In this document: piece after piece, positions 45,526-63,825 of the stretch
Numbering within the stretch: the stretch's first letter is position 1
Layout: every line of letters starts with the position of its first letter
Assembly: GCA_020426325.1 (NCBI GenBank)
Contig: JAGQQG010000009.1
Span: 1 to 64,000, forward strand
Length of the DNA: 64,000 nt
Origin: Planctomycetaceae bacterium
GTDB lineage: Bacteria; Planctomycetota; Planctomycetia; Planctomycetales; Planctomycetaceae
Direction of reading: 5' to 3'
Translations under genes and position numbers: made by a program
Notes under the pieces: generated by a model
The model's input: the letters and a program-made list of their open reading frames with translations, nothing else
Told to the model about the DNA's origin: nothing
Databases searched by the model: none

Positions 45526-45816
45526 ATGCCGCCAGCCGCAAGAGTGGGAGATGATCACGAATGTACGGAAGTGACCGGGGTGGTGCCTCATGTGGGTGGT
45601 CCGATACTCGGTCCCGGTGCAGTCAATGTACTCCTTGAGGGGATGCCGGCTTCGATTGTGGGTGATGAGTGTGAGTGTGAAGGCCCGGTGGACATGACAG
45701 TTATGGGTTCAGCGACCGTCATGATCAGCAACAAGCCGTCCGTCCGTCAGGATGATGAGACAGAACACGGAGGCATGATTGTTGCCGGGGCACCAACAGT
45801 GTTGATCGGTGGTTGA
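45526..45816 (+). CDS. PAAR-domain spike-tip protein
   Basis: PAAR proteins form the sharp cone that caps the VgrG tip. The 96 residues show the PAAR signature in order: MPPAARVGDDHECT, VPHVGGPILGPGAVNVLLEGMPA, the Cys/His zinc ligands in DECECEGP and TEHGGMIVAG, and the closing APTVLIGG. There is no extended toxin domain. It is 39 bp after the FHA gene, and its stop overlaps the TTG alternative start of the giant protein gene. Confidence 0.93.
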   Translation: MPPAARVGDDHECTEVTGVVPHVGGPILGPGAVNVLLEGMPASIVGDECECEGPVDMTVMGSATVMISNKPSVRQDDETEHGGMIVAGAPTVLIGG

Positions 45817-45869
45817 CGGACTCGATCGGTTCACATGGGCTGGAGATTCGACGAAAGACTCGGTCACGG

Positions 45870-48800
45870 ATGACACAAGCCTGGCGATTACAGCAGAATT
45901 CATCCTGGCTTCGCACGACAGCGATGCTCATGGCAGCTGCGCTGTTCCTGTGTGGACTGGCGGCCTTTTTCGTCACGTTGATTCAACCGTTTGAAGCCCC
46001 GAGATTGATCCTGTTGACATGTGACGGCGACCCGGCCACCGCAGGGGCTTCCCCCTTTCAACAACTGGCAACCTCTCATCATCGAGGCCTCTCCTTTAAC
46101 GAAGTCACGACTCCTCCGGGGCCCGACTGGCTCCAAGCGATCGAGAACCTTGGCGACGACATTCTCTCCCGGGATGTCGTGATCGTGTCCTTGCGGGGAA
46201 ATTGGGTCGACACACCTGAAGGGGCTCTGTCGTACGACAACCGTCAGGCGCCTGGTGCCGCGCCCAAGCTGCTTTTGCTTGACGACATCCTTGAACAGCT
46301 GAACGATCTTCCCGCAACTACGGTTGTGCTTTGTCTGGATGACGCAGACCCGGACCTCGATCAGTTCTCAGAGCGTTTACAGGAGGCTCAGTCCAAAGCG
46401 GATGCAAACCGCGTGGTGATCGTGACCTCGCATCGCCTGGGTGAGGAATCGTTTCCACTACCGATGCGGCGGTGTACGGCGTTCGGCCACGTGATCTCTC
46501 GTGCACTCTGTTCAGTGGCCGACCGCAATCATGATTCTGTCATCTCGATGCAGGAGTTCCTGACCACGATCGAGAGAGATGTTCAAGGGTGGGCAGCAGA
46601 GCTGACGGGGGGACGCGAAAGCCAAACCCCTTTGGTCATCGCACCCTCTGGGCTGTCCTCAGAAGCGACGGTCTGCCAGGTGCTCAAGATCGGAGCAACT
46701 TCGGCCGTCAAAACCGGGGGCACAGCCAAAAATACAGATGACGGAGCTTCATCTGATCGAACAGCTGGCGTCGAGTTGAGTCGGGTGACCACAACTTGGG
46801 ACCTGGCGACCGAATTGACTGATCGTGCCCTTGCGGGAGATGTCCCGTTGGTCGTTTGTCGCGGGATGCATCGCGATCTTGTAGAGCTGGAACGTCGCTG
46901 GCGATTTGGCGAATCGACACCCGCTCTTCGGGATGCCTATGACGCAATGCAGGCAACGCTGGAAAGCCTGTCGAAAGATCACGGAGCCCCTGCGAATTCG
47001 CCGCTATGGGCCAGTCTTTTGGCAGACTTGCTGGAACCGGTGAGTGGTGGGAAGTCGGTGGACGCTGCCTCATCAAGTCCGGCTGACCGGGGTGCCAACA
47101 CGCAGGATTCTCCGAGTGCACAACCGACAGTGCGTTCACTGCCCGTCTGGACCGGTTCGTCACGGATGAGGTCTCGCGACTCGTCAAGAATGGACGACCT
47201 CCGTCAGCTTCAGGAGATGATCTCCAGCGAAAAATCCCGGGATGCCATCGTGAACTGGCTTGAACAGGAAAGCTCCGACTCGCAGTCTCGCACTGCTCAG
47301 CTTGCGAGAAAGCTGTCGGACTTGCCGAACATTCCAGACGACCTGTGGACCGACGTTCTTCTGGCACGTGTGATGTTGGAACTCAACACTCAGGACAAGA
47401 CTGCATCCTCCTGGTGTTACGACGAATGGACTCACGCTGAGCAAGCGGCCCTGCGATCGGAAAGATTGCTCCTCGATCAGGTGGAACATGACTGGATCGA
47501 GCGGGCGCAGCAGTCGAATGCAGCGACGATGGCGAGCCTCATGCGCGGGCATGAAGTCGATGCTCTTCACCGGTCTGCGTCGAAGTTGTGTCGCAACCTG
47601 CTGCTGATTCTTCCCGACCTGCTGGAGACCGATCGGCGGCTGCAATTCTGGGAGAATGATCCCGCTGAAGTGGGAGACGTGCTGAATGGAGTCCTGCAAT
47701 CGGTCGCAGAATTGCGTCGGACGCTGTGGGAGGACTCACTCCCGGACACAGGTCATGTTGCCGGGCTGGTGCGAGCTATCGAAGCAGACAGACGCCGGTT
47801 GGCAGAACCTGTGCATCAGCTGACGACCCGCGCAACAATGCCCTCGCTCACATCTCCTCCAGCGAGTGATCTGCTGCGAGCGTTACGATCCGAACTGCTG
47901 ACCACACAGGAGCGGGCCAGTCTGCTCGCTGTCTGGCAAGAGCTCGGCAACGATTTACCGGTCAACGCTCCACACCCAACTTCCGCCGGACGCGTGATCG
48001 TTCACGGACTCTCCGCCGGATTGAAACGTAACTTTCAGCGACGGGAATTCTACAATCATCTATTCAAACCGATCACAAACGACGATCAAGCCCGTGAGCA
48101 ACCGTCAGACGATGCGGACTTACTCGATTCCCTGTTGGCCTACCAACAAGCCGAAACCGCTTGGTGTCACCAGCGACCTGGAGAGATACGTCATCAACTC
48201 GAACAATCTCTGTCGATGCCTATCGATGCCGGGACATTGGCGAGAGCGCAAGTCCTCTGGGATGCATGTGACGGCCTGACGGACGAAGCACAACTCCCGC
48301 CTCAGTGGCCACAGCTGTCGGAACGCATCGAGCAGTGCAGAACCACGCAGCACCTGGACTGGCAGATTCAACGAGTGAATCTGGCGAGAAATGATGCGAG
48401 CGATTGGGAAGCGGATTGCTACGATGAGCGTGAGTCCGACCTCCGTGCTTCTCGACCAATTTTCAGAGCATGGCCCCCTCCGGAGTATGATTCCTCCACG
48501 CTATTGGGCGGCCCCTTGACGGCAATGCTGAGCAACAAGGGCCCGGTTGAACTTCGGTTTGTCGTTCACAACATGTCAAACCGAGATCAGGATTATGTGC
48601 TCACGATGCAATACCCGGTGGATGAGTATCTGATCGAATCTCAAGTCGATCGTGCCGTTCTGCCAGCGGATGCCCCTCCCTGGCCTTATGGATCAACCGG
48701 AACCCAGACCGGACTCCCATTGAGTGTGAAAGGACTCGCGTCACGGGATGTGACGCTGCGTGTTCAGCCCCGATCGGTGGACGCTCGACCGGCAACCCTG

Positions 48801-50684
48801 CTCATAAGGTTACGGGGGGAGCAGTCGACCGTCAGAGCCACCTGCGAACTCAATCCGCCGCGAAAGATTCCCATCGAACTTATCTTGGAAGATGAGTTCG
48901 GCCCGGTGATCGAGGACGACCGAGGCTTCACGGTTGAACCGTTTCCGAACCGAGTTGGCACGCTGCACTGGCTGCTTCAGAGCAACTCGGAAACCGTGCA
49001 GCATGTTCGATTCTCAGTCCATGTGCTGGACGCGGTGCCTCCGGAATTGCCGAGGGAAGCCATCCCTACTGCATCCCTGACCGATTTTCTGGGGACTCTG
49101 TCTCGTGAAACGCACTCCATCGAACTTCCGGTGATCGAGTTGAGGCCTCACGGACCTCCACAACCGGTCGTCTTTCCCAAGGAGGATGACACGAAAGCCC
49201 CACTTGCCATGATGGGCGGACTGGTGGTCGTTCTGTCGGATGAGTCAACAGGGTTGACGACACTGCGACAGGTACGAATGAGGCCGCAGCGTCCACTGCG
49301 GTTTGCTGTCCCGCAGATCGACTATGAACAGACGACAGGACGAATCAGTCTCCGTATTGATGCTAGAGACATTGAACGTCTTCCTCGCGAAGGGATCCCG
49401 GTCTCAGCGGCTCTGGCAAACGACTCTGATCGTCCACTGCCCGCACGGACGATCGGGACGCTGAGTCGCCAGTCTCCACGGGCCATACTGACACTGCTTG
49501 CGGAACCGGAGCAGGACCATCGCGTTCATGTCCATGTGGCCGGTTGGCCGCGAGCCTTTATCTTTGACATCATCGATGGCACCCCGACACCTCTCCGCGA
49601 ACCTCAACTCCGGATCACATCGCCGGAGGCCAATCGTGTCTATCAGACAATTAACGTCGTTCCTGTGAGTGTTCAGCTCGACTCAGCTCCCGTGGGACTT
49701 GTGTCAACGGGTGACTCCTGGTTCGAAGTGGGAGTCGATGCGGACCATGACCGCCGACTGACCGGCGAGGCCGCCGTGCGTATCGAGCAGGATCGGCACG
49801 TCACCGTCGCATGGCTCGGAGCTAACCCGAACGGAACAACACAGTTTCAGGTCGGGGTTCAGGACTTCGATCTGTTGCTGCCGACGAGTGGACTTCACAA
49901 TCAGCGTGCCGGTTTGCTGGGACGGATCGTACGAGAGGGACATCCCGATCTCTGGTCAGAGGCGGTCCCGATTGTGTTCGATACATCGGGTCCCAAGCTT
50001 GCCGATCTCGAACTCCTGCCGGGGCCGGTCGTGACCATTGGTGAATCGATCGTAGTCACGGCACGGGCTGACGATCAGGGCCTGAGCGGCGTCTCGGATG
50101 TGCAGCTTGCACTCGACCCAACGCGGGAAGGAGTCTTCGGACCGTCAATCAAACCGATCTCTTCAACCCCCCTGGAAGATGGGACGTGGCGAGCCGAGAT
50201 GCCGACGAAATCGCTTGAGCAGGGACAGCACCTGCTTCTGGTCCGAGGCGTCGATCAGGCAGGAAATGCCGAAGATCCCCATCCGCTCTGGCTGGAAGCC
50301 ATCACTCCGGAAGAGGCCGCTCGCAGGCAATCCGCACGCACAACAAGCTTCTCAGGACAGCTGTTCTATGGGACAGAGCCGGCATCCGGTTTCAAAGTCG
50401 AGTTGATCGCCAATGAAGCTGAATCATCTGCCCCAGAAAAACCGATAACACCGGAGAAGTCTGTTCAATCGAAAAAGTCTTTCAATGCGACATCTGGAAA
50501 GGATGGGAGGTTTGTCATTCAATCGGTGACCGGAGGAGTCTATTCGCTTCACATCTCCGGTGTCCTGCGAGGTGAGAAGATCGAACGGGATCGCACGGTG
50601 ACGATCGACGTCAACAACCCGCCCGCTGCTCTTGCTGAGCGACTGGACCGACCACTGAAGACTGCTTCGGCCGAAATGCCCTGA
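45870..50684 (+). CDS. Giant membrane-anchored protein A: pseudo-caspase domain and large beta-rich region (T6SS-linked)
   Basis: This protein of about 1,604 residues has one membrane segment (about 18-39, AMLMAAALFLCGLAAFFVTL), with basic residues before it, so most of the chain should be periplasmic. Residues 45-265 have caspase (C14) layout: a strand at DVVIVSLRGNW where the catalytic His loop would be, TTVVLCLDDADP in place of the LDxCHSG Cys motif, then VVIVTSHRLGEES, a helix-like SRALCSVA and the EF-like DRNHDSVISMQEFL. Neither catalytic residue is kept. Helices fill about 300-900, Ig-like beta segments about 900-1490, and a carboxypeptidase-regulatory-like domain (FSGQLFYGTEPASGF) ends the chain. 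ATG at 45870 is used; a TTG at 45813 overlaps the PAAR stop. The role is unknown; it is encoded within the T6SS block. Confidence 0.82.
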   Translation: MTQAWRLQQNSSWLRTTAMLMAAALFLCGLAAFFVTLIQPFEAPRLILLTCDGDPATAGASPFQQLATSHHRGLSFNEVTTPPGPDWLQAIENLGDDILSRDVVIVSLRGNWVDTPEGALSYDNRQAPGAAPKLLLLDDILEQLNDLPATTVVLCLDDADPDLDQFSERLQEAQSKADANRVVIVTSHRLGEESFPLPMRRCTAFGHVISRALCSVADRNHDSVISMQEFLTTIERDVQGWAAELTGGRESQTPLVIAPSGLSSEATVCQVLKIGATSAVKTGGTAKNTDDGASSDRTAGVELSRVTTTWDLATELTDRALAGDVPLVVCRGMHRDLVELERRWRFGESTPALRDAYDAMQATLESLSKDHGAPANSPLWASLLADLLEPVSGGKSVDAASSSPADRGANTQDSPSAQPTVRSLPVWTGSSRMRSRDSSRMDDLRQLQEMISSEKSRDAIVNWLEQESSDSQSRTAQLARKLSDLPNIPDDLWTDVLLARVMLELNTQDKTASSWCYDEWTHAEQAALRSERLLLDQVEHDWIERAQQSNAATMASLMRGHEVDALHRSASKLCRNLLLILPDLLETDRRLQFWENDPAEVGDVLNGVLQSVAELRRTLWEDSLPDTGHVAGLVRAIEADRRRLAEPVHQLTTRATMPSLTSPPASDLLRALRSELLTTQERASLLAVWQELGNDLPVNAPHPTSAGRVIVHGLSAGLKRNFQRREFYNHLFKPITNDDQAREQPSDDADLLDSLLAYQQAETAWCHQRPGEIRHQLEQSLSMPIDAGTLARAQVLWDACDGLTDEAQLPPQWPQLSERIEQCRTTQHLDWQIQRVNLARNDASDWEADCYDERESDLRASRPIFRAWPPPEYDSSTLLGGPLTAMLSNKGPVELRFVVHNMSNRDQDYVLTMQYPVDEYLIESQVDRAVLPADAPPWPYGSTGTQTGLPLSVKGLASRDVTLRVQPRSVDARPATLLIRLRGEQSTVRATCELNPPRKIPIELILEDEFGPVIEDDRGFTVEPFPNRVGTLHWLLQSNSETVQHVRFSVHVLDAVPPELPREAIPTASLTDFLGTLSRETHSIELPVIELRPHGPPQPVVFPKEDDTKAPLAMMGGLVVVLSDESTGLTTLRQVRMRPQRPLRFAVPQIDYEQTTGRISLRIDARDIERLPREGIPVSAALANDSDRPLPARTIGTLSRQSPRAILTLLAEPEQDHRVHVHVAGWPRAFIFDIIDGTPTPLREPQLRITSPEANRVYQTINVVPVSVQLDSAPVGLVSTGDSWFEVGVDADHDRRLTGEAAVRIEQDRHVTVAWLGANPNGTTQFQVGVQDFDLLLPTSGLHNQRAGLLGRIVREGHPDLWSEAVPIVFDTSGPKLADLELLPGPVVTIGESIVVTARADDQGLSGVSDVQLALDPTREGVFGPSIKPISSTPLEDGTWRAEMPTKSLEQGQHLLLVRGVDQAGNAEDPHPLWLEAITPEEAARRQSARTTSFSGQLFYGTEPASGFKVELIANEAESSAPEKPITPEKSVQSKKSFNATSGKDGRFVIQSVTGGVYSLHISGVLRGEKIERDRTVTIDVNNPPAALAERLDRPLKTASAEMP

Positions 50685-50736: not shown

Positions 50737-51549
50737 ATGTGCTCTTCCCATAAGGATGATCGCCGCGTGGAGAACGAGTCCTTACATTGGAGCTTCCCGC
50801 GACTGGCCTCACTGCTTCTGGTGGCCGTCACAGGCTGTGCTGCCACCTATGCCACCATTCCCGAAGGTCCGGGAGTGCCGGTGGTTCATCGTCCGATGAC
50901 GCTCTGGACCTTTCTCGGAGTTGATCAACTCATCGATCATCACTACGAGAGCCATGATCGTCTGATGGCGAGAATCGGGCAGCACTTCCCTGATTTGGAG
51001 CCCAAGCCGCCACTCGTGCTGAACACGTCGCCACAAGCAGCCGCCTCTCCCAGTGTGGCGGTCCATAATGCGGCCTTCGTCCTTTCTGCAGAACAACAGG
51101 CTCCACAGAAAATCAAGGCCATCAAAGCCGTCGCCAAGGTGGGAGCCGCTGCGTATCCGCAGGTCGAGGAGGCACTGCTGGCAGGGATGGATGATCGGAA
51201 TCCCGATGTGCGTCTCGCCAGTGTTGAGGCCGTGCTCAAGACGTCGGGCGATGGATGCGATCCCTGCGATCTCACCGGGAACTGTACGCCTGCGATCCGT
51301 CATCAACTCTGGCTGATGGGATATGGGGTCCACGATGACGGATGTCCGCTGGAACCCTCGCCGGCTGTCCGTCGGGTCGCACGTCTGGCACTCGGTGTGT
51401 GCGGCGGACCAATGCCCGTTGAATGTCCGCCTCCGCAATCGAATGAATTTCCGTCACAGGAAATCATCGAGGAGGTGCTGGGACCGTACGATCTGGCAGA
51501 ACCAACTCCGGCAGACGGGCCGTCTGCGGGGCCTGTCCTCCCGGAGTAA
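50737..51549 (+). CDS. HEAT-repeat-like lipoprotein (T6SS-linked)
   Basis: The N-terminus LASLLLVAVTGCAATY is a lipobox, with the lipidated Cys at about residue 34 after a rather long hydrophilic lead. A later start, such as GTG at 50767, is possible. The mature 235 residues hold helical repeats of HEAT type (QKIKAIKAVAKVGAAAYPQVEEALLAGM, NPDVRLASVEAVL, PAVRRVARLALG) and several cysteines (GCDPCDLTGNC). It follows giant protein A after 52 bp and its 3' end overlaps the convergent giant B gene by 86 bp. It does not resemble TssJ, which is a transthyretin-like beta-sandwich. A substitute outer-membrane anchor for the complex is a possible role. Confidence 0.78.
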   Translation: MCSSHKDDRRVENESLHWSFPRLASLLLVAVTGCAATYATIPEGPGVPVVHRPMTLWTFLGVDQLIDHHYESHDRLMARIGQHFPDLEPKPPLVLNTSPQAAASPSVAVHNAAFVLSAEQQAPQKIKAIKAVAKVGAAAYPQVEEALLAGMDDRNPDVRLASVEAVLKTSGDGCDPCDLTGNCTPAIRHQLWLMGYGVHDDGCPLEPSPAVRRVARLALGVCGGPMPVECPPPQSNEFPSQEIIEEVLGPYDLAEPTPADGPSAGPVLPE

Positions 51550-54500
51550 TGAGCCCCTCGTCGTTCAGAACGGGGACACGCAGCGGAGCAGGCATGACCC
51601 GTTGCGAGGCCGTGTCAGGCATAGACAGTTGGATCTTCACAGGGGCGTTTTCGTCTTCGGCCTGAGCGTAGATGAACGTGTGCACCTCGATCTGGGCGTC
51701 GGGGTCGAGACGCCGACGGACTTTCTTGAGTGCGGGACCCGACATCCATGTGACGGCCAATTCACCCAAACCCGGCGATGTCGGTTGATGTCGGAGGATG
51801 CATTGAACGAAGTTCGCGGTCTGTCTCAGCTCCCATTGCACTCCCGGCGCCAATATGGAATCTCCCTTGGACGTCGAAGGCAACGATAAGGTTTCAACAG
51901 TGGTAGCCACCGCGTCGATCGCGCTGAGCCTCACATTTGCCTGGGGTGCGTCGACAGGCCACTGGTCTGTCGTGATTTGCATCACAGGGACAGGTGTTCT
52001 CGAAACGAACTCATCCCCTTGATAGATGAACGGCACTCCCAACTCTGCGCCCGACTGATCGAGCGGCTGAACCGTGATCTGATAGAGTTCGGGCCGAGCC
52101 AGATAGAGGCGATTTGCCTGTTTGATCGAAAATGTGAAGACTGCATCAGTGCCCGAACGTTGGTGCTGGTGTACTCCAACGAGCCAAGGGACCTTCTCAG
52201 AGTTGGTAGCATTCAAAGCAACGAATTGGCTTCGAGTTGATGTGTATTCCGCAGAGGGGAGTAGACCGGTGGAATCTCTCACATCATCGCCGAGCAGGTC
52301 CACAGCCTCTCCGCCGTTCAATTGGATGGCTGCGTTCGAATTCTCATAGGTCAGGCTGACGCTTGCCGGCAACCGATCGGTCCATGTTACGGGGGCGTTC
52401 ACAGGCGACTCATGCGATTTTCCGTCCGATCCGGTCCAAGTGAATGAAGCAGGTCCGACAAGGGAACGAAGCTTCTGAATCAACTGAGAAGCACGGCTGA
52501 CGTCCAGTTGCGATGTGCCTCCGGTCTGACTGGCGAGCGTGCCCAACTCATCACCAGCTGCCTGTTGATCCTTCGCCGACATTCCAAAGCCAATGACGTG
52601 GACAATCGCACCGGAGTCGTGAGCCTTGGCCAATGCCCCTGCGAACTCGACCCGTTGGTCCGGCGGGGGGTTGAACTGGTAGTTCCGTCCGTCGGTAATG
52701 ACTACGATGTGCCGCTGAACATCAGTCGGCAGTCCATCGAATCCAGCAGCGGCCTGTGAGACAGCCATGTACAATGGGGTTTCCCCCCACGGCAACAGGT
52801 CATCAAGTCGAGCGCTCACCTGGCCCAATTCCGGTGGACCAAACCGCCCGGGAGGCAGAATCGTCTCAACGTCGTGATAGGGCTGAAGACCATCGGGAAC
52901 AGCGAAAGTGTCAGCATAGCGCTTCTGGATAATCACCTTCTGCGACTTTGGATCATGCGTCGCACGGTGACCATAGAGCATGACTCCCACGCTGGCGTCT
53001 GTCTGGTCGGTCATCTCTTCGAGCAGACGCTTCAGGGAGGAGATTGCAGCAGTCAATTTTGTGGTCTTGCCCTGTTCTCCCTCACGAGGCACCTCTTCCT
53101 GCATGGAAGCGGAACAGTCGAGAATGAAAGTCATCGCCGCTCCTTTCATTTGTCGGCTGCTGACCGTGAATGTCGTCTCGGCTGCCGGATCGACCTCGAA
53201 CTCGCTGACGCGTCCACCTGCAGGGATGATGCGGAAATTGCTGCGATATTTGTTGCCACGAAACCACAGTTCTGCGAACAACGGCTGACTGACATCCTCA
53301 AAGCTGTTCGCAACGAGCTGAGCATTCAGGGGGAGATCGTTTTCGATGGTGGACATTTCCAACAGGTCATTCAGCGTGATGGAAGCTGCGCGACCGGGAA
53401 AGGCATCTTCCAGATGTTGAATTCCCACACGAGCCATGCCGTCCGGGAGTCCATTAACGTTTCCATTTGCGCGGACGCTGATGTGCGTACTGAGTTCGTC
53501 CGAGGGCGACACCGGGGTCAGGCTGGCCGCATCCAAGCTCAAGCCGGACTCCGCTGCGGCGATGCTGTCGGACAGTTGTTGGCGGAGACTGGTGATTTCC
53601 TGCTGACGTTCATCGGTGATCCCGGCGACGACTGTGAGCAGTCGATTGACCTGCTGGGACATCAGGATTTGATTCGTCTCCGGCAACGTGCCCCAGAACT
53701 CTCGCAGCGATCCTTCAGCAAGCCAAAGCAGCAGATCACTCCACGCGAGCCTGCGGTATTCCCTGGCCCAGTCGTTGTTCGAGGTCCTCGTGAGGCCTAT
53801 GACGCGACGGCTGCTCAGCAACTGATTGCCTGTTCCATCGTTCAGAGATTTCGCACTGGTTGGGGCGGAGTCGGACTTCTCCGCTTCGCTCAGACGACGG
53901 CAGAACTGTGCATTCAGACATTCCCAACGGGATTCACCTTGCGAGAATCCGGTTGCATGTTGAGGAGGTCCCGTCAAGACGAGCGCGGGATGAGCATCCC
54001 AGGAGCTCAACATCCGAGCCACCGACTGGCTGGGTTTGCGATTCACTGAAGCTTGCGGTTGTTGCGTACGAGCTGCAACGAGTTTCTGAAGAAGGACGAT
54101 TCGCTGTTCGGCAGGCGGGCGGCTTTCCTCGTCGTCAGTCCGACTGAGCAATGGGACCTGCAGAAGTCGTTCGAGCGCGTCTAGATCATCTGCCTGGAGA
54201 TGCCTGAGCGTGAGCAAGCGTGTCCATTCCTCATCAAACCGCGAGCGGAGTTCATTCCAGCCACGCTCCACAGCAAGAGGAGTGACCGGAGTGCTGTCCA
54301 GCTGTGGTGTTGGTGGATGCAATCGCGCGTCAAGGTCATTGATGCCGTTGAGGAGTGGCAGTAAGACCTGATTGACGAGCTGATCCTTCTGGTCCGAGGT
54401 ATTGGCATCGTGGACCGTTGCCCATTCAGCCAGAAACGGCAACTCCAGACGGATCCGGTCGCAGAGGGCCAGCTGTTGATGGAGTGTTGTTGATTCAGAG

Positions 54501-56176
54501 AGACAATGCTGCAACGAGGATTCACCCTGTGCCAGTGTGTGATTGATGTCCTCCAGTTGAGACGTCGCCCCGACTTGCAAGGCGTCGAATGCTTCCAGGT
54601 GATGCTTTCGAGGCACGTCCAGTGCTGCGATCAATTGGCGGCTGACACGAATATCCTCCGGAACGGCGATGTTTTCGAAGCGGGCGCGTTGTGACAGGAC
54701 TTTCTGAATCAGGTCCGGATGCTGCCAGCTGTCAGGCGGTGCGGCTTCCGCAAGCAGTGATGCCATTGCAGCAAGAGACGTCTGAGCCAGCAGTTCATTT
54801 TCACCCGTCGTGCGGCTTTGCTGGGTCAATGAGTCCCGATCAGCGGCCAGCAGCATCTCATCCTGTAAGGTTTGAGCCGAGTGAATCTGATCGGTCTCGA
54901 TTCCTGTTTGCTGCTGAAGCTTGAGCAGTGGATAAGCACCGACAGGCAGCGGATTCGCATCGGCTTGTCTTTGAAGATAACTGAGCCACCGAGTCACTTC
55001 GCGACCGGTCGTCATCGATTCCGCAGCTCCCGCCCGCCCGGACCACAGGTGACTCTCCCAGGATGCCAACGCACGAAGGAGCCGTCCGGCGGCCGGAAGA
55101 TCCTTTCTCCAGACATCCGTATGCAACAAATGATCGCATTGCCGCCAGGCATCGAGAAGTTCTGAATCTGCAATTTCGGGTTCCGCGGACGGAGCGGTCG
55201 ACAGCAGGTCGTCTCGTTGTGCGGTGGGAAGCGCATGAACCAGGCAACTCGTGGACTTCCCCAACTCGAAGACCTCGACAGGGTCCGACTCGGGAAGGGT
55301 TTTCTTCAGAAAGGAAATCAATTCTGTATTGGTAATGTTCCCATCAGACGCCTGGAGATCATCCGCTTCTCCGGCGAGGCCGTGCCACAATGCATCCTGA
55401 AGGACCGATCCGCGTCGTCCCCATGATCGCCAGCGGGTCTCCCCATCACCCGAACGACAATATACGGTGAATCTGGCGTACCTCTTCATGACATCCGGCT
55501 GCACCAACCACGCATCAACAGCTTCTGGAAAACCGTTGTACAGCCATCCGCTATCCCAGTCGGTGCGAGTCGGGAGGCAGTCAAGGACGAGTTGGGTGTG
55601 TTGACTCTCAGGTGCCATCTCCTCGATCTGCTTGCAGAAATCTGCGAGCAAGATCCAGGTGCCGGAATCGAACGGATTCGCGAACGGAGGGATCAGTGCG
55701 GGTTGGCCGTCCGGAGTGACCGCCCCCACTCCCCGAACATCAACGATCAAAACCTCTCCACGTTTGATCTGCGGATGCAGCGTGCGGATTGCCGTTTCCA
55801 GCTGATCCCAGGGACTGCTGGTCAAGCCGTCACCAAACCCGGCATTCTCGACTTGCAGAGTTAGACCATCCAGAAGGCCAAAGCGATCGCCGTCCTCATC
55901 GATCCAACTGGGAGAAGCAAAGGGGGTCGGATAAGAGTCTGCAAAGTAAACAAAAGCCGTGCGAGCGGGAACTTCCTGGACAAGCCACAGCCAACCTGAA
56001 GCCGCAAACAGAAAAGCAATGAGCGACAGGATCAGTCCGACTCCCGCTCCCCTCGTCACTCGGGGTGGTGGAGTAAGTTGGACAGAGGTCAGTCGATGCT
56101 TCGTGGGGGGCTGTCGTTGCAGAGACGCAACAGATCCCGGCACAGCGTCGGTCTGTGGTGCAGCAACAACCTCCAT
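51464..56176 (-). CDS. Giant membrane-anchored protein B: pseudo-caspase plus vWA domain (T6SS-linked)
   Basis: This protein of 1,570 residues mirrors giant A. Its ATG has AAAGG six bases upstream. A membrane segment lies at about 45-68 (GLILSLIAFLFAASGWLWL) after a basic tail, so the long C-terminal part should be periplasmic. Residues 70-320 show a caspase-like layout: VLIVDVRGVGAV where the catalytic His loop would be, TQLVLDCLPTRTD at the Cys position and the terminal SDGNITNTELISFL helix. The catalytic residues are not in place. A long helical part (330-880) leads to a von Willebrand A domain with an intact MIDAS site (FILDCSASMQ, Asp near 1020; VITDGRNYQF), then beta-rich segments to the end. 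vWA domains bind partner proteins through metal. Function is unknown. Confidence 0.83.
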   Translation of the reverse strand: MEVVAAPQTDAVPGSVASLQRQPPTKHRLTSVQLTPPPRVTRGAGVGLILSLIAFLFAASGWLWLVQEVPARTAFVYFADSYPTPFASPSWIDEDGDRFGLLDGLTLQVENAGFGDGLTSSPWDQLETAIRTLHPQIKRGEVLIVDVRGVGAVTPDGQPALIPPFANPFDSGTWILLADFCKQIEEMAPESQHTQLVLDCLPTRTDWDSGWLYNGFPEAVDAWLVQPDVMKRYARFTVYCRSGDGETRWRSWGRRGSVLQDALWHGLAGEADDLQASDGNITNTELISFLKKTLPESDPVEVFELGKSTSCLVHALPTAQRDDLLSTAPSAEPEIADSELLDAWRQCDHLLHTDVWRKDLPAAGRLLRALASWESHLWSGRAGAAESMTTGREVTRWLSYLQRQADANPLPVGAYPLLKLQQQTGIETDQIHSAQTLQDEMLLAADRDSLTQQSRTTGENELLAQTSLAAMASLLAEAAPPDSWQHPDLIQKVLSQRARFENIAVPEDIRVSRQLIAALDVPRKHHLEAFDALQVGATSQLEDINHTLAQGESSLQHCLSESTTLHQQLALCDRIRLELPFLAEWATVHDANTSDQKDQLVNQVLLPLLNGINDLDARLHPPTPQLDSTPVTPLAVERGWNELRSRFDEEWTRLLTLRHLQADDLDALERLLQVPLLSRTDDEESRPPAEQRIVLLQKLVAARTQQPQASVNRKPSQSVARMLSSWDAHPALVLTGPPQHATGFSQGESRWECLNAQFCRRLSEAEKSDSAPTSAKSLNDGTGNQLLSSRRVIGLTRTSNNDWAREYRRLAWSDLLLWLAEGSLREFWGTLPETNQILMSQQVNRLLTVVAGITDERQQEITSLRQQLSDSIAAAESGLSLDAASLTPVSPSDELSTHISVRANGNVNGLPDGMARVGIQHLEDAFPGRAASITLNDLLEMSTIENDLPLNAQLVANSFEDVSQPLFAELWFRGNKYRSNFRIIPAGGRVSEFEVDPAAETTFTVSSRQMKGAAMTFILDCSASMQEEVPREGEQGKTTKLTAAISSLKRLLEEMTDQTDASVGVMLYGHRATHDPKSQKVIIQKRYADTFAVPDGLQPYHDVETILPPGRFGPPELGQVSARLDDLLPWGETPLYMAVSQAAAGFDGLPTDVQRHIVVITDGRNYQFNPPPDQRVEFAGALAKAHDSGAIVHVIGFGMSAKDQQAAGDELGTLASQTGGTSQLDVSRASQLIQKLRSLVGPASFTWTGSDGKSHESPVNAPVTWTDRLPASVSLTYENSNAAIQLNGGEAVDLLGDDVRDSTGLLPSAEYTSTRSQFVALNATNSEKVPWLVGVHQHQRSGTDAVFTFSIKQANRLYLARPELYQITVQPLDQSGAELGVPFIYQGDEFVSRTPVPVMQITTDQWPVDAPQANVRLSAIDAVATTVETLSLPSTSKGDSILAPGVQWELRQTANFVQCILRHQPTSPGLGELAVTWMSGPALKKVRRRLDPDAQIEVHTFIYAQAEDENAPVKIQLSMPDTASQRVMPAPLRVPVLNDEGLITPGGQAPQTARLPELVLPDRTVPAPPR

Positions 56177-56462: not shown

Positions 56463-57959
56463 TCAAAAGTTCCAACGGGCTTCCAGAAGAATGCGTCCCG
56501 TGTACCAGCCTGCATCACCTGCAGTCACTCCGCCGCTGATCCCCAGTTCAGGGAGACCCAAATCCCCTTCAGGCCCAAGCACGAAACGGAGTCCGGGGAG
56601 GAACTCAATGGCTGTTTCTCCATCGACATCGGCTGTGCCACCCGTTGCGGTCGTCCGTTGACCATCCAGGAACGACGTCCCCACGATCTCGAAGGTCGGG
56701 AGGACGGCAAATGCATCGTTCTCGTACCAGATCTTGCTCAGACCGATTCCCCAGATGAGGACTTCACCCGCATAGTTTGCTGTGCCTGATATGGGGATGA
56801 CATATCTCAGCTGGCTGTGGATGTAAGTTTCGTCGGACCAGCGATATCGCACCAGCAGGCCCGGTTCGATAGAGACGTGTCCGCTCCCTAACCCGCGACC
56901 GGCTGGACCGGTGTTGACGTACGTCAGAGTTTGTTGTGTGACAACCCAGTCCCGGCCGTCAACAATGACCACTTTCCCACCCGTGACGAGGTCGCCGATT
57001 CCAACCGTGTTCTTGTTGATCTCAGGATTGATTGAGCGCATGGGGACTTCGATGATGGCAGAGGCACGGTCGGTCGCCGTCTCCATGCGGGCTCTGAGCG
57101 TCATGACATCCACAGACGATTCCACTCCGCGTCCCTTGGGAGGGGCTGCCCAGAAATACTCGGATCGATCCGGTTTTGAGATGCCCCAACCTTGATCATA
57201 TTGCAAGGCAATGTGTGTGAATGGTTTTGCGGAGTTGATGAAAAAAGGAGCGTACATCACACGTTCATGACCGATGCCATAGTCGCTGCAAGGGGGGATG
57301 TACGCTGCAGGAAACAACCGCTCCAACGGACCACATGGTTCTGAGCTTGGAGGACACGCGTAGCCTGTCCGGGCAGCGCGTCGCATGTTGATCCGCTCAC
57401 GCACATGGCCAGCTTCCAGAACGGATGCTGGCAGCTCGGATTCATCAAAGACGGCAGCGTTGAGGATGTCGGGGCTCGTCGATTCTCCCGAGTCATCATT
57501 CAATTCATGGTCTGCTGCTTCCGACTCCCATCGCATTTGGGGTTGAAACAAAGCATCCACATCAGCCAACGAACTCTCGATCACACTGTCGTCCGTTGAG
57601 TTCAAGGACCACTCCCGAAGGCCATCTGATTCAAGTGACGAATCTGGTGGGCCATGAACCGTCTGAGGAGTTTCGTCCGACGGGTCCTTGGCGGTCTTTC
57701 GAGCGGATCGGGACTCAAGGGATGAGAACTCTGACGTACGATCCGTGACCGTGTCCAGTTGATCCTCGAGAGAGGTGTCAGCTGCGTCCGGCTGGGTGCT
57801 TGCATCAAATCCCGGTGGACGTGGGTCGCTGGTCCGAATCGGGAGTGCATCTTGGAACGCACGTCGCAGAGGCAGAGCCGAAGGCCACTCGGCAGCAGTC
57901 AACAAACTGCTCCAGAGTACAAATGCACACGCCAGGATGAACGAGCGGGTCTGGCACAT
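56463..57959 (-). CDS. Probable outer-membrane beta-barrel protein (T6SS-linked)
   Basis: A signal peptide (TRSFILACAFVLWSSLLTAA) is followed by about 150 residues of acidic, low-complexity sequence, a Cys-containing segment (YACPPSSEPCGP), and a region of alternating aromatic and hydrophilic residues. That region fits amphipathic strands (HIALQYDQGWGISK, VSIEPGLLVRYRW, YIHSQLRYVIPIS, GRILLEARWNF). The C-terminal Phe after RWN is the outer-membrane insertion signal of beta-barrels. The start at 57959 was chosen for the signal peptide; a 58025 start adds 22 basic residues. It is divergent from tssK and follows giant B on the - strand. I do not recognise a named family. Confidence 0.72.
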   Translation of the reverse strand: MCQTRSFILACAFVLWSSLLTAAEWPSALPLRRAFQDALPIRTSDPRPPGFDASTQPDAADTSLEDQLDTVTDRTSEFSSLESRSARKTAKDPSDETPQTVHGPPDSSLESDGLREWSLNSTDDSVIESSLADVDALFQPQMRWESEAADHELNDDSGESTSPDILNAAVFDESELPASVLEAGHVRERINMRRAARTGYACPPSSEPCGPLERLFPAAYIPPCSDYGIGHERVMYAPFFINSAKPFTHIALQYDQGWGISKPDRSEYFWAAPPKGRGVESSVDVMTLRARMETATDRASAIIEVPMRSINPEINKNTVGIGDLVTGGKVVIVDGRDWVVTQQTLTYVNTGPAGRGLGSGHVSIEPGLLVRYRWSDETYIHSQLRYVIPISGTANYAGEVLIWGIGLSKIWYENDAFAVLPTFEIVGTSFLDGQRTTATGGTADVDGETAIEFLPGLRFVLGPEGDLGLPELGISGGVTAGDAGWYTGRILLEARWNF

Positions 57960-58190
57960 GCGCTCACAGGATTTCAGCGAGGAAATGCTTCGGAATGTGA
58001 ACGATCTCGAGGTCGGTCGGCGCAAACATCACCGAGAATACAGATGTTATCGGTTGTTCCGGTCAATTCGCTCAAGACGATTCGTTGGTTGAGTCGATTT
58101 CGGATGATAAGGAGCGTCTCCCCTTGATGTCGCTCAAAGTCCGTGTCCTGCAAAGCTCCCGAACCTTTCCCAGCCCCAATCACAGTCTCC

Positions 58191-59606
58191 ATGCGGCACC
58201 TCCCCGTTCACTGGTACGAAGGGCTTTTCCTCCGTCCGCATCATTTCCAGGCCCATGAGAGGCACTGGCAGGAAGCGCTATTTGCCTCGGTCAGTTGGGA
58301 CCATCCCCACTACTGGGGCATTCTGGAGATGGACCTCAGCCGGGATGCCCTGGCCGCCGGACAGCTGGAAGTTCGCACACTTCGCGCCCGGATGCGTGAT
58401 GGAACTCTGGTTGACCGAAGCGATGGGAACCCATTAGATCGCGTTGACCTGAAATCTGCCTTTGACGTGGCCTCGACCGTGACGGCCTATCTGGCCGTGC
58501 CACGACTGCATCTCGGTGAACAGAACGTTGGTAACAATGGAGCCGGTAGCCATCGCTTTCGAGAGAACAGGATGCTTCTGCAGGATGAAGCTAATGGGGG
58601 GAATGACCAGGAAGTCTCCTTCCGAGAACTGGATGTTCAAATTCGGCTGTCGACGGACGAACTGAGCGGGTTCGAAACACTCCCCATCGGCCGATTCCGC
58701 CGAACGGGCGAAAGTTCGGGAGCGACGGAACTTCTGTTGGACTACATTCCCCCCACAATTACCCTGCGGAGCTGGGCTCCGCTGGGAGAACTCTATCGGG
58801 ACATCTGCGACATCATCACACGCAAGCGAGATGTGCTTGCGTCACAAGTGGCAGCCGGGGGAATGGGTTTCGATATGCATGCCCCGGATGACGTCCAGCG
58901 TGTGTTGATGTTCATCACACTGAACCAGTTGCTGGGCGGGCTCCAGGCGTATGCAACGACTCGACACGTCCATCCGTTTGTTGCCTACACCGAACTCTGT
59001 CGAGCTGTCGGTGCACTGGATGCGTTTGACCGGAGTCGTATCGGAGAGTCCGTCCCCGCTTACGATCATGATGATCTGGGCACCGTCTTTCGGACATTGC
59101 GATCGAGAATCGAAAATGCAATTCGATCGGTGCAGGATCATCCCTACTATCAACGATACTTCCAGGGAGTCAGCTCGCGGATGCAGGTGACTCTTGAACC
59201 TGAGTGGTTCCATTCTGACTGGCAGTGGTTCGTGGGAGTCCGCAAGGGAGACCTTTCCGACACGGAGCTTCAGGACCTGCTCTCGCCGGGCAAACTCGAC
59301 TGGAAGCTGGGCAGTGCCCGTCAGGTCGAGATGCTGTTTACTCAGCGACTTCCGGGGCTCCAACTGCGACCGGTGGGTCATAAGTTGCCCGTTCTCCCGC
59401 CGCAACGGGACTGGATGTATCTGGAAGTCCCGAGGACCGATAGCCCGGCTTGGCGCGATGTTCAGGATTCCCAAACTCTCGCGATCCGTTTTCGCGACAG
59501 CCTGATCCTCAATCGTGATCGGCTGCAAGGTGAACGCCGAATCCTCGTGGACGATCAGGGAGACCCGGTTTCGCTGGAAATGGCATTGTTCGCAGTTCCC
59601 AGTTAA
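58191..59606 (+). CDS. tssK: T6SS baseplate protein TssK
   Basis: TssK links the baseplate wedges to the membrane complex. The N-terminus PVHWYEGLFLRPHHFQAHER is the TssK hallmark, followed by WDHPHYWGILEMDLS. The mid-region (LEYIPPTI-like, DYIPPTITLRSWAPLGELYRDI) and the C-terminal segment GLQLRPVGHKLPVLP are also typical. About 471 residues fits. ATG at 58191 is chosen; frame-internal upstream ATG at 58143 adds 16 residues with no family match. Its TAA overlaps the next ATG by one base (TAATG), so tssL is coupled. Confidence 0.95.
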   Translation: MRHLPVHWYEGLFLRPHHFQAHERHWQEALFASVSWDHPHYWGILEMDLSRDALAAGQLEVRTLRARMRDGTLVDRSDGNPLDRVDLKSAFDVASTVTAYLAVPRLHLGEQNVGNNGAGSHRFRENRMLLQDEANGGNDQEVSFRELDVQIRLSTDELSGFETLPIGRFRRTGESSGATELLLDYIPPTITLRSWAPLGELYRDICDIITRKRDVLASQVAAGGMGFDMHAPDDVQRVLMFITLNQLLGGLQAYATTRHVHPFVAYTELCRAVGALDAFDRSRIGESVPAYDHDDLGTVFRTLRSRIENAIRSVQDHPYYQRYFQGVSSRMQVTLEPEWFHSDWQWFVGVRKGDLSDTELQDLLSPGKLDWKLGSARQVEMLFTQRLPGLQLRPVGHKLPVLPPQRDWMYLEVPRTDSPAWRDVQDSQTLAIRFRDSLILNRDRLQGERRILVDDQGDPVSLEMALFAVPS

Positions 59607-60274
59607 TGAAACGACATGTTTCAACAGGTACATCGATGTCTCTCGATCTCGCCCAGTCTGTTGACCCCGTGTTCACCCATGTGCTCGATCTTCTTGAACA
59701 GATCGAAGCCGGTGAGGATCTCGATCCGCGTCGTGTGCAGATGCAAATCCGCGACCTGATTGAACAGGCAGATGCATCGGTTGGCGCAACACAAAGCTGG
59801 GAACTGGCTCGGTATGCAATCACTGCCTGGATCGATGAGGTCCTGCTCGATGCCGCCTGGTCCGGACACGAATGGTGGAGCAATAACGTCCTTGAAGTCG
59901 AACTGTTCCGCACCCGTGATTGCAGCGAGCAGTTCTATGTGAAGGCAGAGTTGGCACGGAGTCTCCCGAACTCGCAGGTACTTGAAGTCTTTTATGATTG
60001 TGTCGTCCTGGGATTTCGAGGGATATACCGTTCGGCAGAGATCGCGCAAGTGATCGGTCGTAATGATGGATTGTCGGAATCGCTGGAGGCCTGGCTGAGA
60101 CGAACGTCGCTGGCCATCGAGAAGAAGTCTCAGATCACTCCTCGGGTGGTCGGCCTTCCAAGCGGTGCTCCCCCAAGAACAGCACGCCGCTGGTTTGTCG
60201 GCACGGGATTTCTCTTGCTGGCTCTGGTAGTGATTGATGTGCTGATCTACCAACTGCGAGGTACATCCTCATGA
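59606..60274 (+). CDS. tssL: T6SS membrane protein TssL (DotU/IcmH)
   Basis: TssL is the inner-membrane anchor that binds TssK and TssM. The cytoplasmic DotU domain (WELARYAITAWIDEVLLDAAW, EVELFRTRDCSEQFYVKAE, FYDCVVLGFRGIY) covers residues 10-170 and one C-terminal helix (FLLLALVVIDVLIYQL) anchors it. It ends eight residues after the membrane helix, without a peptidoglycan-binding OmpA domain. At 222 residues it is the simple type. The start ATG overlaps the tssK stop; an internal ATG at 59636 (MSLDLAQS) is an alternative. Confidence 0.93.
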   Translation: MKRHVSTGTSMSLDLAQSVDPVFTHVLDLLEQIEAGEDLDPRRVQMQIRDLIEQADASVGATQSWELARYAITAWIDEVLLDAAWSGHEWWSNNVLEVELFRTRDCSEQFYVKAELARSLPNSQVLEVFYDCVVLGFRGIYRSAEIAQVIGRNDGLSESLEAWLRRTSLAIEKKSQITPRVVGLPSGAPPRTARRWFVGTGFLLLALVVIDVLIYQLRGTSS

Positions 60275-60394: not shown

Positions 60395-61969
60395 ATGTTC
60401 GACAAAATGTCAGAGCGAGCTGCGAACCTTCGCGTTGCGCTTGCAGGCGTCTCTGCCGCTGCATGGATCGCGCTGGCCACGTTCTCTGGGCTGTTGATGC
60501 TGACGGGCTTAGCTTGGTTGCTTGCGTGGAACAATCCCGTCTGGGTCCCCTGGGGGACGTACCTCACTCTGACTCGGGGCCTCTCCCTGTTGGGCATGGC
60601 CATTCTGGCTTGTGCTGCAGAGTATCTGTTGTTTCGCATCTGGTTTGACGAAACCCCGATCCCTGATCGCGAGCTTCGAGCCGGCTGGACCGCAGGTCTG
60701 CGTCATCTCGCACGCGAAGGGATTCGGCTGCAATCGCTCCCCTGCTTTATGCTGCTTGATCCGACCGATGCCTGTGAAAGCTGGTTCGATGCAGCCGGGA
60801 TCCGAGTTCAGCGACCAGAAGCATCAGACTCTCCGGTGCGGTGGTATGTCGCGGAGGAATCACTGTTCCTTGTCGTCCAGAAGCTGGGATGTCTCGAACC
60901 ATTGACGAAAGAACTGAACGAAGCCCGTCGCAGGCCATACCGGTATGCGATGCAGACATACGCTCATCAGACAGTCCCGCAACCTTCACTCGTCACAGCA
61001 ACTGCAGACAATAATCTTGCGACTTCCTTGGAGCTGGACGATCCGCAAGGACGGAAATCTGCGGACTCCGGATTCGGGTCGATTGACGTCCATGCTGTCC
61101 GTGAGGCTCTTCAAAATCCTCAGTCCAATACGATTCTGAACGATTCATTGGCGCTCGATCAGGTCGATGACACTTACACACCGGGCATGGCGGACATTCA
61201 CATCTCATCGACAGAGATCGCTCGTCAGTCACGCCGACTGGCGGACGTCTGTCGACGCTTGACCGCCTGTCGCCGTCCGGTTGTCCCTGTCAACGGAATC
61301 GGCGTGCTGCTGCCTGATGGTCTTCTGTCAGCCTTCACTGGGACTGGGGCTCGCCTGGGTCAGGCGCTTAGACATGACCTCGATCTGCTGCAGCAGGAAC
61401 TGGGGGTGATTGCCCCAGTGTCCGTGATCGTGGTCGGTGCCGAGGAAGATGCCGGCATGATTGAGTTGATCCGACGTTCTGGTCGAGATCAGTCCAAGGG
61501 GCGTCGTCTGGGATGGGGAATCGGCCCCAGTCGAGCCACTCAGGAACGCGTCGCGGAATTCTGCGAAGAGGTGATGCGCGCTCTGAGGTCAACTGTGGGA
61601 CGCCGATTGAGAGATCCGTTGAGTGTGGGACGTCCGGGGGCATATCGTTTGTTTCGATTGATGAGCAGTCTGAGGGGTGATCGCAGCGAGGAACTCCAGG
61701 CTCTGATCACACACGGGTTCGCGAGTGAAGGGACCAGGGAACCCGATCTGCTGGCCGAAGTCTCCATTGCGGCTACTGGAGTTCAACCGACGGAACGTGC
61801 ATTCGCGGGATCGACGTATCGGCAGCTCATCGAGAATCAGGAGTTCGTCGAATGGACTGTCGCCTCACGAAGACGTGAACGACAGTACCGCTGGCTGGCT
61901 GCCATCTGCGGGGGGCTCTCGATCATGGCGGCCCTCGTCCTCGTTGCTCTGCTATTCGGCGATGTCTGA
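60395..61969 (+). CDS. tssM: Short TssM-like protein lacking P-loop and periplasmic domain
   Basis: TssM normally has two N-terminal membrane helices, a cytoplasmic GTPase-like domain, a third helix and a periplasmic arm of about 600 residues that reaches the outer membrane. Here 524 residues have helices at about 22-45 and 62-83, then a degenerate segment LPCFMLLDPTDACESWFDAA where canonical TssM has GxxGxGKT. The family block ADVCRRLTACRRPVVPVNGI lies near 290-305. A final helix (AAICGGLSIMAALVLVALLF) lies at 500-521, and the chain stops three residues later. The whole periplasmic arm is absent, and the following 240 bp cannot encode it. This is not a frameshift but a shortened form. It probably still binds TssK and TssL. 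Confidence 0.85.
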   Translation: MFDKMSERAANLRVALAGVSAAAWIALATFSGLLMLTGLAWLLAWNNPVWVPWGTYLTLTRGLSLLGMAILACAAEYLLFRIWFDETPIPDRELRAGWTAGLRHLAREGIRLQSLPCFMLLDPTDACESWFDAAGIRVQRPEASDSPVRWYVAEESLFLVVQKLGCLEPLTKELNEARRRPYRYAMQTYAHQTVPQPSLVTATADNNLATSLELDDPQGRKSADSGFGSIDVHAVREALQNPQSNTILNDSLALDQVDDTYTPGMADIHISSTEIARQSRRLADVCRRLTACRRPVVPVNGIGVLLPDGLLSAFTGTGARLGQALRHDLDLLQQELGVIAPVSVIVVGAEEDAGMIELIRRSGRDQSKGRRLGWGIGPSRATQERVAEFCEEVMRALRSTVGRRLRDPLSVGRPGAYRLFRLMSSLRGDRSEELQALITHGFASEGTREPDLLAEVSIAATGVQPTERAFAGSTYRQLIENQEFVEWTVASRRRERQYRWLAAICGGLSIMAALVLVALLFGDV

Positions 61970-62208
61970 CAGAGTGGATCCGGACTGAATCAATTGTCGT
62001 CCGTTTCGATCGTCGGACGACTCGAACAGTGAAACTTCCATGGCGATGAGGCACTCACCGTCAGCACGGTCGTGCAGGTCGTTTCGGTTCTGTCACCTGC
62101 CGCAACGAGGTTGGTGAGAACCGGCAATTCATGCCGATGCTCTTGAAACCATGCAAATCGACGGGGCACCGTCCGTTTGGTCATGGACGAGCACTTCGGA
62201 CATCACTG

Positions 62209-63261
62209 ATGCTGACTGCGCCACTCGAACTCGATCAACTTGGAGCACCCGTCTCGGCCGACAGCGCGAGCGGCGAGAACCTTGCGTACACAGATCGCTA
62301 TCTGCAAATGGAGCGTCTCGCGCAAGGTCGTGCCGAGCAGCAATACGGCGATGCGGTCTACGATGCCGAAGAACCCGACTGGGAGGAGCTCGAGAAGCTC
62401 GCGATGGAATTGGCTGCCTCGACTCATGACCTGAGAGTGGGCGTCTATCTGACCCTGGGACTCCTGCGAACAAACGGACTCGAAGGCTTTGCCGACGGAC
62501 TGAACCTGCTGGCCTCATGGTTGGGCAACGAATGGGAAACGCTCCATCCGGAACTCGATCCCGATGACGGGCTTGAAGCGATCGAGCGATCCAACATCAT
62601 GCTTGAGCTGTGTGACGTGGAACGAACACTCTCAACTCTGGCGCGTGTCCCCATAGTCGAGCATCCCGTTCTCGGTCCTTGTGACCTTTACCAGTTGCGA
62701 ATCGCGAGAAGTGACAGTCGCGGCAGTTCACAGGACGATCATCTTCCCCTGCACGTCATCCGGGAGATGTTTCAGACGAGCGAGACCGCAGACCTGATTG
62801 CCACACAGTTACACGCACGACGAGCCGAGCAACTCGTCGATCAGATTGTCGACATCTTCCAGGACCATACCGGCACATCCCCCAATATGAGTCCTCTGGC
62901 GGACATGATGAGGGAAATTCATGCCTCGATCGAGGAAATGATGCCAGACAAGACGTCCTCTCAACCGAAAACAACTTCCGCTCCGGTCGTGCGACCACTC
63001 GAAGACTCTGCGCCCGAACTGCCTCCACCAACAAGGGAGGGGCAACGTGTCAAAAGTCGGCGTGATGTGCTCGCCATGCTGGATGAGTTGTGTGACTACT
63101 ACCACCGCAATGAGCCATCGAGCCCTGTCCCGTTGCTTTTGCAGCGATCGCGGCAGCTCGTTGAGATGGACTTTGTGGACATCGTGCGAAACCTGGCCCC
63201 GGACGGCCTTGCTGACGTGTCGCGTTGGGTCGGAGTACCCAGTTCCCGTGACGATCACTGA
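62209..63261 (+). CDS. tssA: T6SS cap protein TssA
   Basis: TssA binds the baseplate and sheath end and guides their assembly. The N-terminal ImpA domain has PVSADSASGENLAYTDRY, the Leu/Glu-rich PDWEELEKLAMELAASTHDL, LTLGLLRTNGLEGFADGLN and ASWLGNEWETLHPE. The C-terminal part has a Lys/Pro-rich linker (about 265-310) and a helical domain RRDVLAMLDELCDYYHRNEP, then RSRQLVEMDFVDIVRNLAPDG, the VipA-binding type. ATG at 62209 is used; an upstream ATG at 62131 gives 26 extra residues without match. About 350 residues. Confidence 0.9.
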   Translation: MLTAPLELDQLGAPVSADSASGENLAYTDRYLQMERLAQGRAEQQYGDAVYDAEEPDWEELEKLAMELAASTHDLRVGVYLTLGLLRTNGLEGFADGLNLLASWLGNEWETLHPELDPDDGLEAIERSNIMLELCDVERTLSTLARVPIVEHPVLGPCDLYQLRIARSDSRGSSQDDHLPLHVIREMFQTSETADLIATQLHARRAEQLVDQIVDIFQDHTGTSPNMSPLADMMREIHASIEEMMPDKTSSQPKTTSAPVVRPLEDSAPELPPPTREGQRVKSRRDVLAMLDELCDYYHRNEPSSPVPLLLQRSRQLVEMDFVDIVRNLAPDGLADVSRWVGVPSSRDDH

Positions 63262-63293
63262 TCCTCTTTGCCAGTTGACGGCCCTTCCAAAGC

Positions 63294-63298
63294 GAGGT
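63294..63298 (+). promoter_or_regulatory. Shine-Dalgarno site deciding the tssB TTG start
   Basis: GAGGT lies five bases before TTG at 63304. The upstream TTG at 63268 has no such site. Confidence 0.6.
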
Positions 63299-63303
63299 GT
63301 ACC

Positions 63304-63825
63304 TTGGGCGACAGCAGCCAGAAATTCATCGGTCGAAATCGACCACCCCGTGTGCAGATCGAATATGATGTAGAACTCTACGGAGCGGAAAAGGAAGTTG
63401 AACTTCCCTTTGTCATGGGAGTGATGGCCGATCTCTCAGGGAATCCCGCAGAGGAACTGGCTCCGATCGCTGATCGAACCTTCCAGGAGATCGATTGCGA
63501 TAACTTCGACGATCGGCTCAAAGCGGCCCGGCCCCGAGTCGCGTTCGCAGTTCCCAACACCTTGACGGGTGAAGGAAATGTGGCCGTTGATCTGACATTT
63601 GAGAGCATGGATGACTTCTCGCCCGCCGCTGTGGCACAGAAGATCGAACCTCTCAACACATTGATGACCGCACGTCAGAAGCTGTCAAGCCTGCTGACCT
63701 ACCTCGACGGAAAATCGGGGGCCGAAACGTTGGTCAATCGGATTCTCGAAAACGAAGAACTTCTCAAAACTCTTGCGGACGAGGCCCATGCTGCTGACGC
63801 CGCCGATGCCGGAAAGGAGGCGTAA
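63304..63825 (+). CDS. tssB: T6SS sheath small subunit TssB (VipA)
   Basis: TssB and TssC form the contractile sheath. The N-terminus SSQKFIGRNRPPRVQIEYDVEL is the standard TssB opening, reached when translation begins at TTG 63304, 5 bases after GAGGT. Later blocks ELPFVMGVMADLSGNP, DNFDDRLKAARPRVAF and FESMDDFSPAAVAQKIEPLN are typical. The 173 residues fit. The tssC start is three bases after the stop, so the pair is coupled. Confidence 0.95.
   Translation: MGDSSQKFIGRNRPPRVQIEYDVELYGAEKEVELPFVMGVMADLSGNPAEELAPIADRTFQEIDCDNFDDRLKAARPRVAFAVPNTLTGEGNVAVDLTFESMDDFSPAAVAQKIEPLNTLMTARQKLSSLLTYLDGKSGAETLVNRILENEELLKTLADEAHAADAADAGKEA

Follow-up and report, generated by a model that had tools for sequence, protein, structure and literature searches.

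The window, by which we mean the whole stretch of 64,000 nucleotides analysed here, belongs to a genome of 6.85 Mb (95.6% complete, 424 contigs) and from 42.5 kb onwards carries a T6SS cluster in the order VgrG, FHA/DUF6931 protein, PAAR, a giant Ig protein, a lipoprotein, a giant vWA protein and a barrel protein (both on the minus strand), TssK, TssL, TssM, TssA and TssB (Table 1). Beyond the window, some 5 kb of the same contig (L002) hold TssC, Hcp, TssE, TssF and TssG, of which tssC was assigned by gene order and its use as a phmmer query and the others by Pfam. The core tail and baseplate set of a type i T6SS (tssA-C, tssE-G, tssK, hcp, vgrG and PAAR) is therefore present, and judged by its genes the system looks functional; the TssJLM membrane complex is incomplete, with TssL in place, TssM lacking its periplasmic arm and TssJ absent. 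No ClpV (TssH) gene was seen in the cluster (42554-64000 plus L002), and several related clusters possess a ClpV-like gene. Upstream of the cluster, a trypsin-like/HtrA-type protease is predicted at 39487-40455 on the minus strand.

Table 1. Features of the T6SS cluster, in positions of the window.
Feature	Position	Strand	Basis
VgrG spike	42554..44557	+	TIGR03361 E=5.8e-133
FHA-like / DUF6931 protein	44561..45487	+	Pfam
PAAR tip protein	45526..45816	+	PF05488 E=3.3e-18
Giant Ig protein, up to 1623 aa; predicted layout: cytoplasmic tail with WR, single TM helix, Ig-like C-terminal domains	45813..50684	+	hhalign, weak Big_7/Big_13 matches
Lipoprotein, lipobox VTGC, weak HEAT-like repeats; candidate TssJ analogue	50737..51549	+	sequence features
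Giant vWA protein, 1570 aa; predicted layout: cytoplasmic tail, single TM helix, caspase-like domain, helical stalk of ~550 residues, vWA, beta C-terminus	51464..56176	-	VWA E=6e-7, AF2, VIA-align
Protein predicted to form an outer-membrane beta-barrel; has a signal peptide and an aromatic C-terminus (LEARWNF); no Pfam match	56463..58025	-	sequence prediction
TssK baseplate subunit	58143..59606	+	TIGR03353 E=2.1e-76
TssL/DotU of the short form, membrane helix at the C-terminus	59606..60274	+	PF09850 E=2e-29
Short TssM, 524 aa, three membrane helices, GTPase-like cytoplasmic domain, armless	60395..61969	+	PF14331, AF2 model, hhalign
Degenerate P-loop of short TssM, residues 120-130, LLDPTDACESW	60752..60784	+	aligned on GxPxxGK[ST] of full-length TssM
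Conserved TssM block RRPVVPVNGI, residues 293-302	61271..61300	+	alignment of 25 short and 11 full-length TssM
Helix 3 (membrane) and 3-residue tail of short TssM	61883..61966	+	hydropathy, AF2
TssA	62131..63261	+	TIGR03363 E=4.7e-61
TssB sheath	63268..63825	+	TIGR03358 E=4.7e-55

TssM is regarded as the backbone through which the baseplate of a T6SS is tied to the outer membrane. The gene runs from an ATG at 60395 to a stop at 61967-61969; an upstream TTG at 60302 is a possible alternative start, and the orthologs begin near the ATG. The earlier note had read from the letters a protein of two N-terminal helices, a soluble domain with the RRPVVPVNGI block, a third helix and a stop three residues later, and the open reading frame, Pfam and AlphaFold all agree with that layout. 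The sole Pfam match is IcmF-related_N (PF14331, E=1.1e-11, residues 280-464, above cut-off), which encloses the block, and the Pfam search matched IcmF_C nowhere in the protein. An AlphaFold model built on 25 orthologs (mean pLDDT 80.4, pTM 0.75) has helices at residues 21-46, 59-84 and 489-523 flanking the soluble domain, with the chain ending at 524. Hydropathy likewise gives three membrane helices, PF14331 and hhalign both set the IcmF-related_N cytoplasmic domain between the second and third, and the large periplasmic TssJ-binding domain (IcmF_C) is missing. Homology to full-length TssM is, on profile comparison, not a matter of chance, because hhalign aligns the two profiles at E=6.8e-26, in a match that ends at column 464 of 1265, which is helix 3.

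Many TssM proteins carry a Walker A nucleotide-binding loop, and the short TssM has none. At that site the window's protein reads PCFMLLDPTDACESWFD, placed by the joint alignment on GEPGSGKT of full-length TssM, so that the LLDPTDACESW picked out by the earlier note does occupy the P-loop position. GK[S/T] occurs in 0/25 short orthologs versus all 11 full-length planctomycete TssM aligned, a count that covers the aligned sequences only and excludes loci L114 and L115, for which a wrong longer frame had been picked. By VIA-align the model resembles small GTPases (YsxC/EngB, Arf) in its fold, at Z 11.2 and rmsd 3.9 over 170 aligned residues, and no TssM chain appears in that match list; Foldseek gave weak matches alone and a sequence search of solved structures nothing relevant. 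As the modelled small-GTPase fold is kept and Walker A is gone, the soluble domain appears to be a GTPase fold with a defunct loop, from which we infer that the short TssM does not bind nucleotide. In Agrobacterium, the TssM Walker A is reported as necessary for Hcp secretion, according to the title of a reference in PMC3213119.

The short form is conserved beyond the window. Across 25 orthologs, conserved at 16-60% identity, 24 stop 2-53 residues past the last helix predicted by hydropathy; in the remaining one (L027) the scan missed helix 3, and its C-terminus nonetheless aligns with the other 24. Relatives were found in 45 of 170 genomes of the order by protein search and in 48 by profile. 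Two samplings of the phylum returned frames of 540-611 residues matching the full-length TssM profile in the class of the window only (families f1 and f2); in the other classes TssM frames mostly span about 1,130-1,680 residues, with few shorter. Because the short form is conserved over that range of identity and present in 48/170 genomes, 60395-61969 is, by sequence comparison, neither a truncation nor a broken gene.

One must nevertheless consider that an arm is encoded and has been overlooked. Profile searches of the window's own genome (PF14331, PF06744, PF12790; 95.6% complete) returned the short TssM as the one PF14331 match and found no second TssM, IcmF_C or TssJ, and a six-frame scan of the contig, cluster included, with that half of the full-length profile which covers the arm found nothing. 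The earlier note had exposed its reading to two findings, a second full-length TssM or TssJ in the genome and a frameshift concealing the arm; the searches gave neither gene, and no frameshift hides the arm, because the short form is conserved. There is next to no chance that the gene is a sequencing error, a pseudogene or a recoded gene in which slippage restores the arm: Citrobacter tssM1 offers a precedent (PMC4256274) and the gene contains one homopolymer run of at least six, a G6 at 61910, but a poly-A slippery site of the Citrobacter kind (PMC4256274) is absent from the gene. Truncation, pseudogene and recoding were accordingly ruled out by the shared end point, six armless frames and the missing poly-A tract; the gap from the stop to tssA is 161 nt. 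It is somewhat less far-fetched, if still very improbable, that a canonical arm and TssJ lie elsewhere, too divergent to detect or missing from a draft in 424 contigs. Against this stand the conservation of the short form and the distribution of IcmF_C, which the same search detects in other classes of the phylum, only outside the window's family, and in none of the sampled genomes of that family, several single-contig genomes included.

Candidates for the missing function lie in the same cluster. Both giant families comprise proteins of 1,550-1,900 aa with, in nearly all members, a single predicted membrane helix near the N-terminus, and some 1,500 residues of each are predicted to be mostly periplasmic (the Ig giant of the window probably starts at the ATG at 45870). 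The two are paralogs, matching by hhalign over 624 columns of their N-terminal halves (E=2.8e-40), and differ in their C-terminal halves, vWA in one and Ig-like in the other. The model of the vWA giant (pLDDT 73, pTM 0.55) contains a caspase fold at residues 67-317 (VIA-align Z 16.7, 214 aligned, rmsd 3.3) and a vWA domain (Z 14.9, 129 aligned, rmsd 1.9), separated by a helical stretch of about 550 residues and a beta region; by paralogy, the Ig giant would have a caspase-like part too. The catalytic His and Cys pair of peptidase C14 is not conserved across either family, the window's copies having no His, and Pfam recognised no toxin domain. The arm of TssM was also sought within the giants and not found: comparison of both profiles with full-length TssM was null (E=0.42 and 0.17), and no TssM chain appears in the VIA-align list for the vWA giant, where the helical stalk is barely covered. 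As the giants thus bear no sequence relation to the arm, any replacement would be by unrelated parts. W[RK] motifs occur in the cytoplasmic tails of 10/11 Ig giants and 10/14 vWA giants, where shuffles average about 4-5; they are present at 45870-45926 of the window as well as in giants of L039, L041, L053, L057, L059, L063, L067 and L149. The motif, possibly a docking peptide common to both giants, speaks for a shared apparatus; the window's own vWA giant, whose tail has no WR motif, counts against it.

Distribution and gene order tie the giants to the short TssM. In the 170 genomes of the order, a near-complete vWA giant is found in 44/48 genomes with short TssM vs 0/122 others (Fisher p about 2e-36, a value that ignores shared ancestry); the exceptions are G020, whose TssM is marginal, G061, which has a fragment, G071 and G090, and weaker matches elsewhere fall mainly on the caspase-like part (residues ~70-350). 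The vWA giant follows tssM on the same strand, starting no more than about 200 nt after it, in at least 22 genomes (e.g. G117, G130, G014, G013, G019, G133, G005, G089), and in several (e.g. G005, G014, G117) the Ig giant ends just upstream of tssM. Comparison of 23 loci showed the giants, the lipoprotein and the barrel recurring with tss genes, both giants being present at 15/15 loci with full surroundings. Counting against the giants as part of the membrane complex, those of the window's clade adjoin vgrG, outside the tssM operon. Beyond the window's own family, flanks were inspected at four short and 10 full-length TssM loci. In a second family, FHA-PAAR-VgrG-Hcp of G365 adjoins both giants and the lipoprotein at a distance of 40 kb from tssM, and a vWA giant has the same setting in G525; at the other two of the four loci (G488 and G285) giants are absent within ~100 kb. 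None of the giant, lipoprotein and barrel families lies near the 10 full-length TssM loci of other classes (up to 20 kb each side). In G005 the vWA giant has further neighbours within the T6SS cluster (L060:1958-11620), namely a sigma factor, a WD40 giant of 1782 aa and a kinase that carries an FGE-sulfatase domain, perhaps a regulatory cassette.

Gene fusions point to partners. In G088 the lipoprotein and barrel form one 1351-residue open reading frame (L065:4787-8839, minus strand; A3 E=9e-25, A4 E=3e-64), in G071 TssL (DotU, residues 5-170) is joined to the short TssM in one frame of 737 residues (L074:7012-9222, minus strand), and in G090 a Ser/Thr protein kinase occupies the N-terminus of a short TssM of 956 aa (L047:16904-19771, plus strand), which suggests phosphorylation control built into the TssM anchor. 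Roughly one in two members of the lipoprotein family carry an ordinary signal peptide in place of a lipobox, which counts against the lipoprotein as an outer-membrane partner.

The reading that we favour, and hold to be reasonably probable, is a divided alternative membrane complex, in which TssL and the short TssM form a platform and the giants, lipoprotein and barrel replace the arm and TssJ. TssL and the short TssM would serve as an inner-membrane platform only, docking the TssK baseplate, the soluble domain of TssM being the relic of a GTPase fold that has lost its P-loop; spanning the envelope, the task of arm and TssJ, would have been handed to other proteins. The two giants, each held by one N-terminal helix, would cross the periplasm with a caspase-like domain, a helical stalk and vWA or Ig-like domains, and reach the lipoprotein and beta-barrel protein as the outer-membrane end. 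The earlier suggestion that this system bridges the envelope another way is the best reading, because neither a second TssM or TssJ nor a hidden frameshift was found, and candidate replacements now accompany it; its physical side is less firm, in that we infer from predicted topology, gene linkage and co-occurrence that the giants contact TssL and TssM, span the periplasm and open a path for the needle.

Sensory or surface roles for vWA, Ig and caspase-fold proteins are also imaginable, and a less probable alternative is that the TssL/short TssM platform alone anchors the baseplate, with no dedicated trans-envelope channel, the giants acting as contact sensors or firing regulators. In its favour, all three kinds of domain typically serve recognition and signalling, one short TssM carries a fused Ser/Thr kinase, and giants can sit with vgrG, PAAR and FHA far from tssM. 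Against it, a core part would better explain why the giants and tssM occur together almost one to one and share an operon, the lost arm and TssJ would stay uncompensated, and the lipoprotein and probable barrel are co-conserved. The vgrG-PAAR-hcp neighbourhood, in the window and the second family, would suit secreted or surface effectors, or adhesins, merely accompanying the spike genes. We consider this improbable, given that the giants have one predicted N-terminal membrane anchor with a cytoplasmic tail, number about one copy of each per system, contain no toxin domain that Pfam recognises and share an operon with tssM in many genomes.

Set against known systems, the divided complex resembles each in part. 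In enteroaggregative E. coli (T6SS type i) TssM has 1129 residues, and TssM normally links TssL to the outer-membrane lipoprotein TssJ via a 744-residue periplasmic domain (PMC3213119). The short TssM shares with it two N-terminal helices, IcmF-related_N, a third helix and adjoining tssL and tssK, but has three residues past helix 3 in place of the TssJ-binding domain, no TssJ and no Walker A. Type iii systems of Bacteroidota lack TssL and TssM, and a TssNQOPR membrane complex stands in for TssJLM (PMC10781749). These, too, have no TssJ and an alternative membrane complex with a vWA protein (TssR) and an Ig-like one (TssP, PKD-domain), whereas the window's system keeps TssL and TssM. Compared at Pfam level only, neither giant matches the TssN, TssQ, TssO, TssP or TssR families, and the likeness to TssR and TssP may be convergence. 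Citrobacter rodentium (tssM1) and Yersinia (tssM3) likewise use a TssM without the C-terminal domain in a working T6SS; their short form stops inside the periplasmic domain (residue 807), and slippage also makes full-length TssM, which is needed (PMC4256274), whereas the window's short TssM has no arm encoded at all.

Boyer et al. 2009 reported the presence of a T6SS in Rhodopirellula baltica as a matter of distribution only, and nothing on the baltica TssM or membrane complex was found there (PMC2660368); nor was a description of planctomycete TssM or of the giants found in the full-text literature, a scope that leaves subscription papers and preprints aside. The T6SS itself is hence known and the membrane complex variant appears new, which a search of that scope does not prove. 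There is about an even chance that, after TssJLM and TssNQOPR, this is a third, independently evolved T6SS membrane complex found across the class Planctomycetia, made of an armless, P-loop-less TssM with TssL, two caspase-fold giants, a lipoprotein and a beta-barrel.

A conserved lineage whose TssM is cut at the inner membrane parts the platform job of that protein from its bridging job, and illustrates how evolution can swap one membrane complex for another. Such systems now score as incomplete in T6SS searches based on full-length TssM and TssJ, and the short form would let them be found. The giants, lipoprotein and barrel offer a testable replacement set in bacteria with an unusual envelope.
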